Positions 13,264 through 28,859 of a stretch of 34,165 nucleotides of DNA are shown one piece after another (positions within the stretch are counted from its first letter, which is position 1; each line of letters begins with the position of its first letter). The stretch is from contig JACUUT010000004.1 in NCBI GenBank assembly GCA_014859165.1, positions 1-34,165 on the forward strand, written 5' to 3'. Source of the DNA: Dehalococcoidia bacterium. Its GTDB lineage: Bacteria; Chloroflexota; Dehalococcoidia; E44-bin15. The position numbers were made by a program, and so were the translations under genes. The notes beneath the pieces are model-generated. The model had not been told where the DNA came from. It did no database searches and saw nothing but the letters and a program-made list of their open reading frames with translations.

Positions 13264-13812
13264 CTACAGGGTCTCTACCTTAGTGAACAACTGGTCTAAA
13301 GAAGCCTCACCGGCTCGAAAGCCTGTACCGTGATTTCTGGCGTGCGTGATTGCATCATGAAGTCTTAGGTCAATCAGTATGGTGCCCCGCCGTATCTGGT
13401 CAGCGACGAGAGTGGGTGAACTTCCAGTAAGCAATCTTGCTCGGTAATAGTTGAAATATTCAACATCGCCGCGCATTTCAGTTCTGGCAGTAACAAGTAT
13501 CAGAGCCGGCATCTTCGCCTGAAACTGCACGCTCAAGTCCTTAGTGAACCAACGCGCTAGGGTTTTACCAGATGTGTGCTGTACTGATACTACTTCATCC
13601 GTGACCGTCAGGAACAATCCTGAACTATTGGGCTGCTGGCTCATGGTAAAGTACAGCCCAAGACGCCCATTTTGGTCTGGCGTACCGTAGGCTCGGATCG
13701 CTGCGAGAGGTTGCATTACCCAAGCTTTCCTGTTGAACGTGAAGAGAGTTATCAGACTGGTAACATTGTCTCGATGTGCCTTCACAATTGATACGTAAGT
13801 CACATTCCTCAC
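13264..13812 (-). pseudogene. MvaI/BcnI-like restriction endonuclease, C-terminal part
   Basis: SLITLFTFNRKAW...GRLGLYFTMSQQPNSSGLFLTV...YFNYYRARLLTGSSP...GTILIDLRLHDAITHARNHGTGFR resembles the MvaI/BcnI C-terminal region; no upstream acidic catalytic residues and no ExK in frame. Confidence 0.5.
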
Positions 13813-13969
13813 AAATAAAGTCTCCTTCTGGATATGGCTTCCCCATGCTTTTCCTATATGCCCGCGTGTTAAAATCTGATATTCGGTTCACAAATCTGCC
13901 TGAACCAAACTTGACTGACTTGCCGCATTCATTACATATTTCTTTCATAACTTTTTTCATGTAAATCAC
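13625..13969 (-). CDS. Small zinc-ribbon protein, frame runs into the nuclease region
   Basis: MKEICNECGKSVKFGSGRFVNRISDFNTRAYRKSMGKPYPEGDFICEECDL: two CxxC knuckles in about the first 55 codons; remaining frame looks non-coding. Confidence 0.45.
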   Translation of the reverse strand: MIYMKKVMKEICNECGKSVKFGSGRFVNRISDFNTRAYRKSMGKPYPEGDFICEECDLRINCEGTSRQCYQSDNSLHVQQESLGNATSRSDPSLRYARPKWASWAVLYHEPAAQ

Positions 13970-15003
13970 CTCGAAATGCCTAATGCATCTATGATTTTAA
14001 TTGTTTTATGTAGTTGAAGCAGAAGAATGAATCTGACGCCGTCTGGCGTTATATAGAATTTATCACCAATCCGACCAATAAGACCTAATTCTGCAGCGTA
14101 GTTAGAATACATCTTGTTCACATCTAACATAGTCTTCCTTGCAGACCACTCAAAATATTTCCCGGAGCTTTCTCTAAAATAGCTCATTACCATATCAAGT
14201 GGAACCGGGTAAGTATTCTTTGATAGAGTGAAAACCGTCTCCACCATTGTATAAATTCCAAATACAGTGCGACTTATGAAGGGGTCTTTTATGATAAAAT
14301 CCTGAAGGATTCGAGATTGCTCATCAGATATAAAGTCGATAGGCGCTTTGATGTCTCTTGCCCAAACATACTTTTTGCCTAAAGTGGTAAGTTGATATTT
14401 TTTGTCATCAGTTGTTTCCATAAGGTAGAGATCCTTGGCTAAGCGGAAATAACTACTTACAGTACTTAGGGAAAGTCCTGTATCTTGGGCTAGTTCTTTC
14501 CTCATCTTCTTCTCGGATAAGGCATACAGTAACCTGTTAAGAAGATGAATTTGCCATAATCCATGATCAGCAGGTTTTAGGGTGATGAAATTTGCAAAGC
14601 TTCGCAGCCTTGAAAAGAACGCGTCCAATACATCTTGAGGCAGATATTCACGGGGTATGATTCCGGCATCCTCACATAAATCCCTTTGTTCTTGGTCGAT
14701 CTCTGGTGATAAGAGAAATGCATCGATATCTCCAGCTACGAGTTTATTACCATTCTGTAGTTCTATCAGTTCTGTCCTATAATCTCTAACTTGATATACA
14801 AAATCTGATATACATTTTTCCACTTTCAGTTCTACAAGCTTGAGGCGAGAATCTGCTACGAATAGCAGATCTATTCTCTGACCACTAGGCATAACTTTTT
14901 GGCGTGCAAGGAGTGTCAGGTCCTCCTTTATTCCTAAGATTTCCTTCGCTATGTCGGGGTATGTGGCTAAAACATCTTCAACCTGAGACTCTCTCACAAT
15001 CAT
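13966..15003 (-). CDS. NucS/DUF91-like PD-(D/E)XK nuclease with C-terminal winged-helix-like region
   Basis: VMPSGQRIDLLFVADSRLKLVELKVEK (D...ELK core); later KELAQDTGLSLSTVSSYFRLAKDLYL is HTH-like. Confidence 0.6.
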   Translation of the reverse strand: MIVRESQVEDVLATYPDIAKEILGIKEDLTLLARQKVMPSGQRIDLLFVADSRLKLVELKVEKCISDFVYQVRDYRTELIELQNGNKLVAGDIDAFLLSPEIDQEQRDLCEDAGIIPREYLPQDVLDAFFSRLRSFANFITLKPADHGLWQIHLLNRLLYALSEKKMRKELAQDTGLSLSTVSSYFRLAKDLYLMETTDDKKYQLTTLGKKYVWARDIKAPIDFISDEQSRILQDFIIKDPFISRTVFGIYTMVETVFTLSKNTYPVPLDMVMSYFRESSGKYFEWSARKTMLDVNKMYSNYAAELGLIGRIGDKFYITPDGVRFILLLQLHKTIKIIDALGISR

Positions 15004-15038
15004 GGACTTTCACCTTCGACTAATTGGACAATTCAGGT

Positions 15039-15521
15039 CTAGCCTTTTAAAGGCTCTGAGGATACGCATGCAGACAAGGAAACTGTACCCTCCTTCAAAT
15101 ATTGCGGTATATTGTGAGCATCATCCGCGATAGCGATTTGTTTAGTATCGTTAAGTAGGCTACCTTGTGCTAATCTAGACTTTGCAATCTCTGTGTATTT
15201 TTCGCTTAAGTCAAAGCTAACAGCATTCCTGTTCAAGTCTTGTGCAGCTACAAGAGTAGTGCCTATTCCTACAAATGGGTCAATGACTAACTCTCCTTCA
15301 TGCGTGAATAACTTTATACACTTCGCTGGCAGAGCAATCGGAAATACAGCAGGGTGAATGTTCTTATCCCGTATATCCCTCTTCTCATAGAAGAAATCCC
15401 AGATGGCTACTTGGTTTCGAATCCATTCCTTAGCAGTCAGACAGTTAATGTGATTTGGAGGGCACTCACATATCCTCTTATAACCGATGTCAAGCAGTTT
15501 AGTATCTTCAGCTTGAATCAT
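15039..15521 (-). pseudogene. Truncated site-specific DNA methyltransferase (N4/N6 family)
   Basis: HEGELVIDPFVGIGTTLVAAQDLNRNAVSFDLSEKYTEIA (motif I); ends ...DDAHNIPQYLKEGTVSLSACVSSEPLKG* where a TSPPY catalytic motif would be expected. Confidence 0.65.
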
Positions 15522-22512: not shown

Positions 22513-24039
22513 TCACACCTCCTGCTTTTTGCCCTTCACTGCCAGAAGCCTATTTAAGGCGTTCATATATGCCTTGGCTGAGGCGACGATGATGTCTGTG
22601 GAGGCGCCCCGACCGGTGTAGACCCTGCCCTCACTCTCGATCCTTATCGTCACCTCGCCGATGGCGTCGATGCCCTCGGTGATCGCTTTGACGCTGAACT
22701 CGGTGAGGGTATTGGGCACGCCCACCAGGCGATTGATTGCTTTATAGACGGCGTCCACGGGTCCCGTGCCCAGGGCGGCATCGGCGATGACCTCGCCATC
22801 GGGGGTGATAAGCTTTACCGTGGCGGTGGGCACGCTGCGGTCGCCACACGAGACTTGCACTTGCTCCAGATGATAGGCTTCCGATGTAGTGCGCATCTCC
22901 TCGGCGACCAGGGATTCAAGGTCGCGGTCGGTTACCTCTATCTTCTTGTCGGCGATCTCCTTGAAGGCGGAGAAGGCGCGCTCGATATCCCCTTCGGTCA
23001 GGGTATAGCCCAGTTCCTCGAGGTGGGCCTTGAAGGCGTGGCGTCCGCTATGCTTGCCCAGCACCAGGGTGCTTGAGGGCAGCCCTATGGAGCGGGCATC
23101 CATGATCTCGTAGGTTGTTGGCTCCTTCAGGATGCCATCCTGATGGATCCCTGACTCATGGCGGAAGGCGTTGGCCCCAACAATAGCCTTGTTGGGTGGG
23201 ATAGAGAAGCCAGTAAGCTCGCTCACCAGACGACTGGTCTTATGAATCTGAGTGGTATCGATATTGGTGGTCAGCTCGAAGAAGTCCCTGCGGGTTCTGA
23301 GTGCCATGACGATCTCCTCAAGCGATGCATTCCCCGCTCGTTCTCCGATGCCATTGATGGTGCATTCCACCTGTCGGGCGCCACAAGTGAGCGCTGCCAG
23401 GCTGTTGGCCACCGCAAGCCCAAGGTCATCGTGGCAGTGAACGCTGACCACCACCTTGTGGATATTGGGCACATTCTCAAAGATGCCTCTTATCAGGCGG
23501 CTGAACTCCTCCGGGGTGGTGTAACCAACGGTATCGGGGATATTTACCGTTGTTGCCCCGGCCTCGATCACCGCCTCGAGGATTTGATAGATGAACTGGT
23601 GGCTGGTGCGAGTAGCGTCCATGGGGGAGAATTCCACATCCTCCAGATACCCTTTGGCGCGAGCGACCATATCGCGTGCCAATTCCAGGGTCTCAGCCTG
23701 CCCCATTCTCAGTTGATAGGCGAGGTGGATGTCCGAGCTTGATAGGAAGACATGAAGGCGGGCTCGCTTTGCCTCTTTTATCGCTTCCCAGGCACGGTCA
23801 ATGGCCTCGGCATTGGCATGGGCTAGAGCGCAGATTACGGGCTCTCTCACCTCCCTGGCGATGAGGCGCACTGCCTCGAAGTCGCCCGGGGAGGCGATGG
23901 GGAAGCCGGCCTCGATAACATCGACGCCCAGTCTCTCCAGTTGCCTGGCGACCTCCAGCTTCTCCTCGGTATTAAGGGTTGCCCCTGGCGCCTGCTCCCC
24001 ATCTCTTAATGTAGTATCGAAAATGATCACCCGTTCCAT
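22513..24039 (-). CDS. leuA: 2-isopropylmalate synthase
   Basis: [53 protein letters not shown]...[17 protein letters not shown]...[19 protein letters not shown]-terminal regulatory domain. Confidence 0.95.
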
Positions 24040-24070: not shown

Positions 24071-24433
24071 CTAAATGAGGCTGAGGAGCTTACCCACCGC
24101 TTTCCTTATGTCCTCTGCGTAAATGCGAACCTCCTCCATTCTAAGTCCAGCTTCGTAAAAGTTGCTATGTAGATAGCTGGCGTGTCCATAGGCATCGTAG
24201 ATGCTCTTGTCCTCGCGTTTCTTTGCCAACTCTCTGGCATAATCTCCAATCTCCCAGTGCGCTATAAGCTCTCTCCCTTCGCTCGCCGCCACCGCTTTCA
24301 GGGCTTCGGCCATGCTCCCCCACAGAAACTCGCCCGCCTTCTCGGCGTCGCCGGCTACCATAGAGGCAAAGGCATTCTCCAAATAGTGAATGCTTTGGGC
24401 TTTATATTTTTCTGCCATTCCCCTTCGGTTCAT
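24071..24433 (-). CDS. PaREP1/HEPN-like small protein
   Basis: [56 protein letters not shown]..; all-helical PaREP1-like pattern; ATGA overlap with upstream gene. Confidence 0.55.
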
Positions 24434-24921
24434 TTTTCCGGTATCTCGTAGCTCAGAATATCACCAGTCCTGGCATCTACTCTAATCTTGGCTATTTTGA
24501 CAGCAAAAGCTCCCACATCTATATCCACATGCCAAACATCGCCTTCCTTGACCGACTTCAATGGCAATGCAAAACCACTATACTTCTTAATAAAGGAGTG
24601 AGCAATGTCCATAGCCTGTTCGGCAGTTGATACTTTCGCAGCTTTAACATAATCAAAGGATTCCCTATAAAAGTCAGAGGCTATTTGCAATGCCTTCGGA
24701 ACCGTTGTTGCTTCAAAAATTTCATCTACTGCGGACTCCTCTTTCTTTCTCCAGCGCTCCACATATGATTTGAATTCCTCGCCGCTAAAATGACGGAGGA
24801 ACATATTATAGTTTGTTTCACACATCACAGCGCTTATAGTTTTCGCAATGAGTAAAATGTCATCCTCTGCTTTTTCTAATCGCTTCTGGAGCCTATCTAT
24901 TTCCTCGCTGCTATAAGTCAT
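24430..24921 (-). CDS. Hypothetical protein with PepSY-like C-terminus
   Basis: VWHVDIDVGAFAVKIAKIRVDARTGDILSYEI resembles PepSY-type domains. Confidence 0.5.
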   Translation of the reverse strand: MTYSSEEIDRLQKRLEKAEDDILLIAKTISAVMCETNYNMFLRHFSGEEFKSYVERWRKKEESAVDEIFEATTVPKALQIASDFYRESFDYVKAAKVSTAEQAMDIAHSFIKKYSGFALPLKSVKEGDVWHVDIDVGAFAVKIAKIRVDARTGDILSYEIPEK

Positions 24922-24935
24922 AGCTGCCTCCTTGC

Positions 24936-25928
24936 CTATCCCCTGAGCCAGGGCATCATTGCCCTGAGCCGTTTGCCCACCTCCTCGATCTCGTGCTCGG
25001 CCTCATGGCGGCGGTAGGCGTTGAAGCTGGGGCATCCCGCCTGGTTCTCCAGTATCCACTCGCGGGCGAAGCTGCCATCCTGAATCTCGCTGAGGATCTG
25101 CCACATTTCCTCCCTTACATAGTCATCGATTATCCTTGGCCCGCGAGTATAGTCGCCATATTCTGCGGTATCGCTCACCGAATAGCGCATGTAGCTGAGA
25201 CCCCCCTGGTAGATGAGATCGATGATTAGCTTGAGCTCATGGCACACCTCGAAGTAAGCGATCTCTGGCTGATAGCCAGCGTCAACAAGGGTTTCGAAGG
25301 CTGCCTTAATCAGCGAGGTAATGCCACCGCAGAGCACCACCTGCTCCCCGAAGAGGTCAGTCTCCGTCTCCTCGGCGAAGGTGGTCTCTAGAACCCCAGC
25401 TCTGGTGCAGCCGATGCCCTTGGCATAGGCAAGGGCGATTTCCTTAGCCTTGCCTGTGGCGTCCTGATGGATGGCGACGAGCGCCGGGGCACAAGAGCCC
25501 TCGGTATAGAGGCGGCGTAGCATGTGCCCAGGGCACTTTGGGGCGATCATGCTCACATCCACATCTGGGGGTGGTAGGATTTGGTTATAGTGGATATTGA
25601 AGCCGTGGGCAAACATCAGCATATTGCCCTTAGCGAGCCCCTTTTCAATGGAGCCATAGTAGACTTCGCGCTGAAGCTGATCGGGGAGGAGCATCACGAT
25701 AATGCCCGAGGCCTCGGCTACCTCGTCAGCGGTTGCCACCTTGAAGCCAGCCTTCTTGGCGTTGCGCCACGGCTCGCTACCCTCAAGCTCGCCTACAATC
25801 ACCTGGCATCCGCTGTCCTTGAGGTTCAGGGAATGGGCATGCCCCTGGCTGCCATAACCGATAATGCCGATGACCTTGCCCTTGATGATGTCCAGGTTTG
25901 CGTCCTTGTCATAGTAGATTTTAGCCAT
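24936..25928 (-). CDS. ilvC: Ketol-acid reductoisomerase
   Basis: [40 protein letters not shown]...[27 protein letters not shown]...[14 protein letters not shown]. Confidence 0.97.
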
Positions 25929-25949
25929 GGCTCGCTCCTTGTTAGTATT

Positions 25950-26489
25950 TTACTCATAAAACTTGTTTAGCAGATGGCAATGGGTGCCATTAAATTCCGT
26001 TCGCAGTCGACATGGTGGTTTATCCCCTTTGGCATAATAAATCAAGTCCACATCTGATAATGGTCCTGCAACCTTTCCAGATACGAATTCAAGGGGATCC
26101 CGCTTCTGCTTTATATATTCAAATTTGGTGCAATAAAGATGTTCAAGAATACCTTCCTTCTGTAAATCCTTGACAACTGATGCACTGAAAAGCCACGTAG
26201 CATCGAGATTTTCATTATATTCCTGGGTTTTGATATTCACATAAATTGTTTCTTCAAGAAGGATTATAATAACATCGTAGCCACGCCAGTTTTTGAATTT
26301 AACCTTATCCTCGCCAAAATAATCTATCATATAGTCAATCGTGTGCTTCTCAATCACATCAGATAGAGTTCTGGATGAGAGCTCAAGTTTGTGTTTTCCA
26401 AATCTTACGGGAATTTGTGCAGAGTTGAGGTGACCTTCACATTTTTGGACAAATTCTTTCAGTATGATTTTAGATTTAGTCGGGGTCAA
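25950..26489 (-). CDS. Putative PD-(D/E)XK-like restriction endonuclease
   Basis: KFKNWRGYDVIIILLEETIYVNIKTQEYNE resembles a D...(N/E)xK nuclease core; TTG start overlaps the stop of the Zn-ribbon gene downstream of an MTase. Confidence 0.45.
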   Translation of the reverse strand: MTPTKSKIILKEFVQKCEGHLNSAQIPVRFGKHKLELSSRTLSDVIEKHTIDYMIDYFGEDKVKFKNWRGYDVIIILLEETIYVNIKTQEYNENLDATWLFSASVVKDLQKEGILEHLYCTKFEYIKQKRDPLEFVSGKVAGPLSDVDLIYYAKGDKPPCRLRTEFNGTHCHLLNKFYE

Positions 26490-26677
26490 TTTTTTTCACC
26501 TTTTATGTATGTAATTGCACAATCATCGCAAATAGGGGCAATGGCTTCTTCGGTATAAAAAGCATCATATTGGTCACCCCTTTCTTTTGCTTCTTCGCCA
26601 TCCACATAACCAAACTTCAATTCTATAGCCATTGTTTCTTCATCAAATTCTTTGTGGCATAATTCACATTTCCACAT
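26486..26677 (-). CDS. Small two-CxxC zinc-ribbon protein
   Basis: MWKCELCHKEFDEE...APICDDCAITYIKGEKN; overlaps both neighbours. Confidence 0.55.
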   Translation of the reverse strand: MWKCELCHKEFDEETMAIELKFGYVDGEEAKERGDQYDAFYTEEAIAPICDDCAITYIKGEKN

Positions 26678-28133
26678 AACAACTCATCCCTCTATAATTG
26701 CTTATTTCTTCTTCAAGATAGCGGAGCAAAGAGGACATTTTATTCTGAAGAGTATTATTCTCTCTGTATTTTCGATAATCACTAAGAATACTCTTATATT
26801 TTTCTTCAATTTCCATTTGAATACTTTGGGGAACAACTGGGATAGGTAAGGATAAAAGGTCAGTTTTGTTTATACTCACAGTTCCAACTCCATGCTTTAG
26901 TAGATTTATAGAATCCCTTCCAAACCTTGTTTTTAGATATATAACCAGAAAATATGGATCAATATCTCTCACCCTGAATATATGAATATAATCAGTTGCT
27001 ATTCCTTCATCTGCTTCAGTGCCAACAATGGCTACTCTTCCGGCGCACCCAACACCGACTCGCACGAAAAGAATGTCATTAATTTGCGTATGTCCGCTAG
27101 AAATATCCATCGGGCTATTAGGTTCAATAAACTTTTCGCCCTTTTTATAGTTAATCCCAAGTTCAGTAATATTGGTCGCATGCAGGAATCTCAAGCCACT
27201 TTTTGAGAATTTCCTCTCCTTGCCATAAAGAGTTCCACCAGTTTTAAAATAAGTGATAAACTCCCCTAAAGGCTTAAAACTAATCCCTTGCTCCTGCAAT
27301 AAGCCGATTTTGACATCTTGCGCCTGATAATGATACTCAAAGTCCATTCTTCTCGATAAATTGTCAATAGAGACTTGAAGCTGCCTCTCGATTTTGCCGT
27401 TAGTATTGATTTCTAGTAGTGTAACAGGTGTCGTTTGATCATAGCCTCCATTATCCTTCTTTTGCAAAACTAGGATTGCTGTTTTGGCTAGAGTGCCACT
27501 AAAAGCTTTCCTAGGCAGACTGATAATATATTTGACCGAAGTCTCCCTTAAAATAAAATTCCTTACATATTGATATTGTGGATTCGCTAATATCCCGCTA
27601 GGTAGGATAATAGCAATGAAACCGTTCGGCTTCACAACTTTTATGAACTTCTCTAAAAACAGAACTTCGATTGCTTGGCTTGATAAGGTTTGGCTTTCTG
27701 GGAGCAAAGCATACTGGACGTTATCTCTCTTTTTACCCAATTCATACAACTCGAGGATGTTTCTGTCTCTAACCCTATCATACCAACTGCTAAAAGGGGG
27801 ATTACCTATAGCTAAATCAAATTTGCTATTGGATGCTACTTGATGATACTCCTTCCAATCATATTGATTGTCTAAAAGGGTATTGCCACAATATAAATTT
27901 GCTTTATCAAGTTTCACGCGGCACCTGTTGATGACCTGTTGGTCAATATCTATTCCGAATGATTTCATTCCAGGTGTCTTCTGATCGAGAACTTCTAAGA
28001 AGACACCATCGCCAACAGAAAGATCGATAGCATTGGTAAACTCGCCAACTGGAAGCAAATTGATAAGTGCCTCAGCAACTTTCCGTGGAGTGAAGTATTG
28101 GTTGTATCTCTTGCGTTTATCGCGGTTTGGCAT
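26664..28133 (-). CDS. N6-adenine DNA methyltransferase with C-terminal target-recognition-like region
   Basis: YFTPRKVAEALINLLP, AIDLSVGDGVFLEVL (motif I), FDLAIGNPPFSSWYD (NPPF motif IV); C-terminal HsdS-like segment FLHATNITELGINYKKGEKF...DILFVRVGVGCAGRVAIV. Confidence 0.82.
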   Translation of the reverse strand: MPNRDKRKRYNQYFTPRKVAEALINLLPVGEFTNAIDLSVGDGVFLEVLDQKTPGMKSFGIDIDQQVINRCRVKLDKANLYCGNTLLDNQYDWKEYHQVASNSKFDLAIGNPPFSSWYDRVRDRNILELYELGKKRDNVQYALLPESQTLSSQAIEVLFLEKFIKVVKPNGFIAIILPSGILANPQYQYVRNFILRETSVKYIISLPRKAFSGTLAKTAILVLQKKDNGGYDQTTPVTLLEINTNGKIERQLQVSIDNLSRRMDFEYHYQAQDVKIGLLQEQGISFKPLGEFITYFKTGGTLYGKERKFSKSGLRFLHATNITELGINYKKGEKFIEPNSPMDISSGHTQINDILFVRVGVGCAGRVAIVGTEADEGIATDYIHIFRVRDIDPYFLVIYLKTRFGRDSINLLKHGVGTVSINKTDLLSLPIPVVPQSIQMEIEEKYKSILSDYRKYRENNTLQNKMSSLLRYLEEEISNYRGMSCYVEM

Positions 28134-28141
28134 AGCGTTCC

Positions 28142-28279
28142 TCAGAACCCAAATTCAAGTTGGGCTAGCGCCAGTTCATAAATGAATTGTACATTGTTCA
28201 GCAGAGCGAGTTGGGAGCTATCGCCAAGGACGCTTTTCTCATAAGCCCACAGGGTTCTTTGTTCCTTGATTTTCGCCAT
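28142..28279 (-). CDS. 45-aa hypothetical protein between ilvN and MTase
   Basis: MAKIKEQRTLWAYEKSVLGDSSQLALLNNVQFIYELALAQLEFGF*; only an open frame, no domain. Confidence 0.3.
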   Translation of the reverse strand: MAKIKEQRTLWAYEKSVLGDSSQLALLNNVQFIYELALAQLEFGF

Positions 28280-28292
28280 TAAGCCGGTCTCC

Positions 28293-28859
28293 TTACAGAT
28301 TCGATATTTCGTTAGCGCCTTTTGCCTTTTTGGGGCGAGCGCCTTTCCGGGGTTTTTCTTCCTCCACCAGGATGGGCCTGGCGGCCCCACGCGTCATAGC
28401 TATTCTCCCGGTGCGGGCGATCTCCTTTACTCCGAAGCCCTTGAGCAGGCGAAGCAGCGATTCAAGCTTATCCTCATCGCCGGTAACCTCCACTACCATG
28501 GAATCAGCAGCCACGTCCACAATATTGGCCCTGAAGATGTCCACAATCTGGATGATCTCGCTCCTTGTTGAGGGGGTGGTTTTTACCTTGATCAAGGCCA
28601 ACTCCCGAGCCACCAGACTATCTTCGGTGATGTCGGTAACCTTAACCACATCGATGAGCTTATCGAGCTGCTTTCTGACCTGCTCCACTGAGGCAGCGGT
28701 GCCATCGACCACAACGGTCATCCGCGATAGCCCCGCCATCTCGCTATGCCCCACAGCGATACTCTCGATATTGAAGCCGCGTCTTCGGAAGAGGCTGGCT
28801 ACGCGGTTCAAGACCCCGGGCTTGTCTTCTACTAAGGCTACTAATGTGTGCTTGGTCAT
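28293..28859 (-). CDS. ilvN: Acetolactate synthase small subunit
   Basis: MTKHTLVALVEDKPGVLNRVASLFRRRGFNIESIAVGHSEMAGLSRMTVVVDG...; ACT domain; ATG overlaps ilvB stop. Confidence 0.94.
   Translation of the reverse strand: MTKHTLVALVEDKPGVLNRVASLFRRRGFNIESIAVGHSEMAGLSRMTVVVDGTAASVEQVRKQLDKLIDVVKVTDITEDSLVARELALIKVKTTPSTRSEIIQIVDIFRANIVDVAADSMVVEVTGDEDKLESLLRLLKGFGVKEIARTGRIAMTRGAARPILVEEEKPRKGARPKKAKGANEISNL

Follow-up and report, generated by a model that had tools for sequence, protein, structure and literature searches.

The analysed window, i.e., a stretch of 34,165 nucleotides from a Dehalococcoidia bacterium, carries several open reading frames between ilvN and ilvC. On the minus strand, ilvN is followed by a 45-codon ORF, a gene for a predicted N6-adenine DNA methyltransferase (MTase), a gene for a small CxxC...CxxC protein (Cys4 protein), a gene for a predicted nuclease (R179) and, finally, ilvC (Table 1). 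A previous sequence-only reading had placed three overlapping, same-strand genes between ilvN and ilvC, with which the coordinates and the ilv family matches agree: the MTase and Cys4 genes overlap by 14 nt, and the Cys4 and R179 genes by 4 nt.

Table 1. Features of the ilvN–ilvC region (positions in the window).
Feature	Position	Strand	Remark
ilvN	28293-28859	-	identity by family match
Left junction, AAGGAG at ilvN stop	28289-28294	-	by-eye alignment, 10 empty ilvN-ilvC junctions
45-codon ORF (45 aa), relic of the M1 N-terminus, between ilvN and MTase	28142-28279	-	
MTase, 489 aa, predicted N6-adenine DNA methyltransferase with one HsdS-like domain	26664-28133	-	
Cys4 protein, 63 aa, CxxC...CxxC	26486-26677	-	
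R179, 179 aa, TTG start, predicted restriction nuclease	25950-26489	-	
Right junction, second AAGGAG (ilvC ribosome-binding site)	25935-25940	-	
ilvC	24936-25928	-	identity by family match

Since the GC content of the insert is 33–41% amid a surrounding region of 53–60%, it is foreign to this operon. In 10 of the 11 same-family genomes from which ilvC was recovered, ilvN and ilvC are adjacent, with a spacing of roughly 9–13 nt. By-eye alignment with ten such empty junctions revealed that the window diverges from the ilvN-ilvC consensus past the AAGGAG at the ilvN stop and returns to it at the second AAGGAG, i.e., the ribosome-binding site of ilvC, so that about 2.35 kb has been added. The AAGGAG repeat could represent a 6-bp target duplication; alternatively, it may simply reflect that a ribosome-binding site is required at either side. 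The low GC content and the empty site in relatives support the earlier proposal that a restriction-modification (R-M) cassette has entered the ilv operon. Among 400 sampled genomes of the phylum, both R179 and the cassette MTase were found in the window's own genome only. Carriage by a plasmid or phage was considered and rejected, as R179 had no match in PLSDB or INPHARED, and neither R179 nor the MTase had relatives in IMG/VR. Horizontal acquisition of an R-M cassette and its insertion in the ilv operon form part of the Type II R-M reading developed below, which we consider highly probable as a whole. A promoter scan of the locus returned 11 sigma-70-like sites (vs. 6.0 expected from shuffling), none of them a convincing cassette promoter, and, on the coding strand, nothing that resembles a terminator was found.

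Two other parts of the window deserve mention. Between ilvC and a 508-aa ORF (22513-24039) lie a minus-strand gene for a PaREP1/PaREP8-family protein (an "archaeal" Pfam family, 1.2e-12; 24071-24433) and a 163-aa ORF (24430-24921) without Pfam match. Further away, a low-GC stretch (0.38–0.45) harbors a second, degraded R-M locus on the minus strand (13264-15521), consisting of an MvaI/BcnI-type restriction enzyme lacking its N-terminus (PF15515, profile positions 48-227, 8.6e-17), a 345-aa ORF without confident family, and a piece of an N6_N4 methyltransferase that ends early.

In Pfam, the MTase is matched by N6_Mtase (1.1e-22) and, at residues 287–448, by Methylase_S (6.3e-6), consistent with its earlier description as an N6-adenine MTase with an HsdS-like C-terminus; the HsdS-like recognition domain spans residues ~285–450 and is followed by a C-terminal helix. 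Over residues 6–466 it also matches the PADLOC MTase_II profile PDLC03311 (E 2.8e-77), which represents Type II methyltransferases with a fused HsdS-like domain. Its NPPF catalytic motif is unchanged in 10 homologues, and the cassette thus contains the separate MTase gene with catalytic motifs that a Type II R-M system requires. The HsdR motor or separate HsdS subunit of Type I systems is absent from the cassette and its homologues, and the 489-aa chain comprises MTase and recognition domains only, unlike the fused nuclease-MTase of Type IIG.

For R179, no sequence match was obtained in Pfam, NCBIfam, PADLOC, PHROG or the PDB, in keeping with the earlier inability to name its family. AlphaFold2 modeling from an alignment of ten homologues yielded one confident model (pLDDT 80, pTM 0.79) and four poor ones. 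In this single confident model, the elements follow the alpha-beta-beta-beta-alpha-beta core order of the PD-(D/E)XK superfamily, so that the nuclease-like character initially suspected for the 179-aa protein is now backed by a predicted restriction-endonuclease fold rather than a non-nuclease one. A Foldseek search of the PDB with this model placed R.SwaI on top (E 2.2e-4, probability 1.00), with chains of EcoRV and HincII making up most of the top fifty matches; human Rep15 chains at ranks 2–5 were the main noise, and the TM-scores were modest (0.4–0.56).

Residues E46 (located in a helix), D71 (within GYDV) and N84-I-K86-T of R179 are unchanged in all ten aligned sequences. The order of E46, D71 and K86 is that of the EcoRV catalytic residues (IDIKT), and an E...D...x-x-K order is shared with R.SwaI, R.EcoRV and R.HincII, i.e., the best structural matches of the model. 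We therefore infer that E46, D71 and N84-x-K86 constitute the putative active site. With respect to the (D/E)-x-K motif, D71 and K86 are invariant, whereas the second acidic position is occupied by Asn (N84) in all ten sequences, giving VNIKT where EcoRV has IDIKT with an Asp; R179 is also shorter than EcoRV (179 vs. 245 aa) and, unlike all three enzymes, is paired with a Cys4 gene. A sequence-profile link to EcoRV, the only one of the three included in that comparison, was discarded, as hhalign revealed no sequence similarity (probability 0.1%). The lack of a sequence family, the Asn at the second acidic position and the modest fold scores could also suit some other DNA-acting or regulatory protein of an MTase-centered defense or epigenetic module. 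Given that a restriction enzyme ranks first among the fold matches, that EcoRV and HincII chains dominate the top fifty, and that R179 is found intact only beside an MTase (see below), we consider such a non-restriction role improbable. Within the same overall reading, and at the same high level of confidence, the model points to R179 belonging to the PD-(D/E)XK-like nucleases, and among these to the structural group of SwaI and EcoRV.

The Cys4 protein, which is putatively zinc-binding, carries the motif C4-x2-C7 ... C50-x2-C53, of which all four Cys residues are unchanged in 9 homologues. Its AlphaFold2 model (pLDDT 87) had no significant structural match, and identification of the protein through its fold was abandoned for that reason. 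No helix-turn-helix family match was obtained, so that the small gene of this cassette encodes the Cys4 protein instead of the small helix-turn-helix controller that marks C-protein-controlled R-M systems. The Cys4 protein, predicted from the overlaps to be translationally coupled to the MTase and R179, would most likely support the nuclease structurally, either as one of its subunits or as a partner.

Related cassettes were retrieved from other genomes. A scan of species-level genomes returned 10 loci, in records labelled Nitrospinota, Neomarinimicrobiota, Nitrospira/Nitrospirae, deltaproteobacterium, Elusimicrobia, Stahlbacteria, Zixibacteria and uncultured bacterium. R179 is complete in nine of these loci, whereas L011 retains its C-terminal end only; a tenth complete copy outside the window was present in genome G1522. 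Cassettes with a complete R179 beyond the window thus amount to 10 loci from about eight phyla. MTase homologues do occur together with the small genes, with the Cys4 gene in 9 of these 10 loci (10 of 11 intact cassettes when the window is included); in the remaining one (L010), an unrelated zinc-ribbon gene follows R179 in its place. Identity to the window proteins is 76–83% for R179 (59% in L010), 57–71% for the Cys4 protein, and about 48–54% for the MTase. In one cassette (L007), R179 precedes the Cys4 gene. Because the three ORFs recur jointly in unrelated genomes, and because R179 is under strongly purifying selection (dN about 0.12 with saturated dS), their sequences indicate that the cassette is not a product of chance.

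Some neighboring genes were observed as well. Directly after the MTase, two loci contain an extra gene of no assigned family (L006:7342-7800 and L007:2852-3346; 152 and 164 aa, respectively), and these genes are 35% identical to one another. A distant MTase homologue (36% identity) has as neighbors a 261-aa ORF of no assigned function and a DPPY methyltransferase, at a locus with neither R179 nor Cys4 gene (L040; G1130:C6:38000-50000).

The highest conservation within the MTase was located in its HsdS-like region (residues 301–450, mean pairwise identity 0.65–0.80); between the window MTase and the others, the catalytic domain is 39–45% identical and the recognition domain 64–73%. Since the recognition domain is the best-conserved part of the MTase, all members of the family probably share one target sequence, and a modular specificity, in which a constant nuclease would be combined with variable MTase recognition domains, was ruled out. 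That R179 and this recognition domain are the best-conserved parts of the system would also be expected if MTase, Cys4 protein and R179 formed one complex, with the HsdS-like domain directing R179 in a Type I or Type IIB manner and the small R179 (179 aa) having no target recognition of its own. The same conservation is nevertheless expected if R179 reads the target independently, and EcoRV-type enzymes, which are near R179 in size, recognize DNA by themselves. As there is moreover no fused or adjacent HsdR motor and no second S-type gene, a single complex seems to us an unlikely arrangement compared with a separately acting MTase and nuclease.

In the trees, the window MTase has a long branch (1.16) and the window R179 a short one (0.08), while the situation is reversed in L010 (MTase branch 0.42, R179 branch 1.02). 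Unequal rates or reassortment of MTase and R179 could possibly underlie these contrasting branches, the trees being too poorly resolved to tell co-divergence from reassortment. A long MTase branch might alternatively indicate that the cassette is decaying in the window genome, leaving a solitary MTase and an inactive R179, and both the TTG start of R179 and the truncation of the other R-M locus in the window could be read in this way. However, all three ORFs are intact with their motifs retained, and the short branch and low dN of the window R179 (against saturated dS) speak against decay, to which we accordingly attach little credence; an intact cassette is preferred.

The occurrence and loss of the individual genes fit this preferred R-M reading. 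An intact R179 lies beside an intact MTase in 11 of 11 loci (window included), providing the adjacent, co-occurring nuclease gene without helicase or translocase that is typical of Type II systems, although R179 is assigned as a nuclease by its predicted fold only. In L041 (genome G586), where the MTase is missing behind a transposase-like end, an intact Cys4 gene is retained, and R179 has shrunk to a 57-aa ORF through in-frame loss of most of its middle. L011 has no MTase and retains about 17 C-terminal residues of R179 only, and L039 (G1133) carries an orphan MTase. Based on these three loci, the nuclease survives only beside the MTase while the MTase can stand alone, a pattern that fits an R-M system.

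L011 also clarified the origin of the 45-codon ORF. This locus (L011:5746-8340) contains an intact pair of a 418-aa N6_N4-type methyltransferase (M1) and a 222-aa nuclease (R2; PADLOC REase_II, 3.8e-36). Behind this pair lie an ORF of 65 aa resembling a zinc ribbon, the final ~17 residues of R179 and part of a second R2; the locus is the scar left by a lost cassette. The 45-codon ORF of the window matches M1 from L011 in tblastn (46.5% over 43 aa, E 6.7e-6), as well as in the reverse direction (60.6% over 33 aa, E 1e-7), which identifies it as a relic of the M1 N-terminus (~42 aa) and hence of a different R-M system. Accordingly, the sequence-only reading was right about the three genes of the insert and overlooked this fourth ORF, which makes the insert composite.

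Pieces of M1 are located directly upstream of the cassette in seven loci (the window, L002, L003, L004, L005, L009 and L043), and pieces of R2 directly downstream of R179 in all of these except the window; the short pieces (M1 in L005 and L043; R2 in L003 and L043) were read by eye from the translated junctions. M1 of L004 and L009 extends to residue 408, where the sequence passes into the start of the MTase, and R2 resumes at residues 77–81. The simplest account is that MTase-Cys4-R179 entered the M1/R2 boundary once, in an ancestor; spread followed, and M1 and R2 decayed separately, although the MTase and R179 trees are unresolved and provide no proof of one event. In this older insertion the cassette came to lie between M1 and R2, with loss of the first part of R2; in the window genome, the composite is located between the ilvN stop and the ilvC ribosome-binding site, with about 42 M1 residues left.

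Taken together, we are largely confident that the locus is a mobile Type II R-M cassette, lodged within an older R-M system and inserted in a biosynthetic operon. The MTase would be an adenine (N6) methylating enzyme whose one HsdS-like domain recognizes the target, and R179 would cut the same target when unmethylated. The same-strand placement should allow the cassette to be transcribed together with ilv, and the addiction that R-M systems cause would work against its loss. Such a placement might also tie R-M expression to amino-acid control, as the sequence-only reading proposed. More speculatively, and with considerable doubt on our side, the cassette might represent a three-component Type II variant, with a PD-(D/E)XK-like nuclease that has Asn in place of a catalytic acid and depends on a separate Cys4 subunit, as an undescribed restriction-enzyme family spread by lodging in another R-M system.

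Comparable insertions have been described for the PabI family, whose R-M pairs were inserted on the same strand in glutamate and histidine operons, where an older Type II R gene was replaced and its M gene disrupted, and where post-segregational killing was suggested to help maintain the operon (PMC4615327, PMC10273834); further routes of R-M movement are known (PMC3031569). Common to the PabI insertions and the window are the same-strand site in an amino-acid operon, the displacement of an older R-M system and the low-GC mobile unit. PabI is, however, a half-pipe DNA glycosylase, whereas R179 is predicted to be PD-(D/E)XK-like; PabI systems lack a Cys4 partner, and the window differs from them in having ilv as the invaded operon and M1/R2 as the displaced pair. 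Cys4 zinc motifs occur in a few Type II enzymes, e.g., BslI (an alpha2-beta2 heterotetramer) and PacI (PMC4081073); there they form structural zinc sites within the enzymes, whereas the window has Cys4 as a separate 63-aa gene.

Because of these PabI precedents, the insertion and displacement are of a known kind, and the unfamiliar part is the nuclease family with its Cys4 partner. This family is absent from Pfam, NCBIfam, PADLOC and PHROGs, with a described relative in REBASE being possible. While the general picture of R-M biology is unchanged, the cassette offers a nuclease family new to these libraries, with a ready homologue set and a testable active site. It also adds an example of R-M genes inserted in an amino-acid operon, where the empty site can be read, and clearly illustrates the displacement of one R-M system by another.
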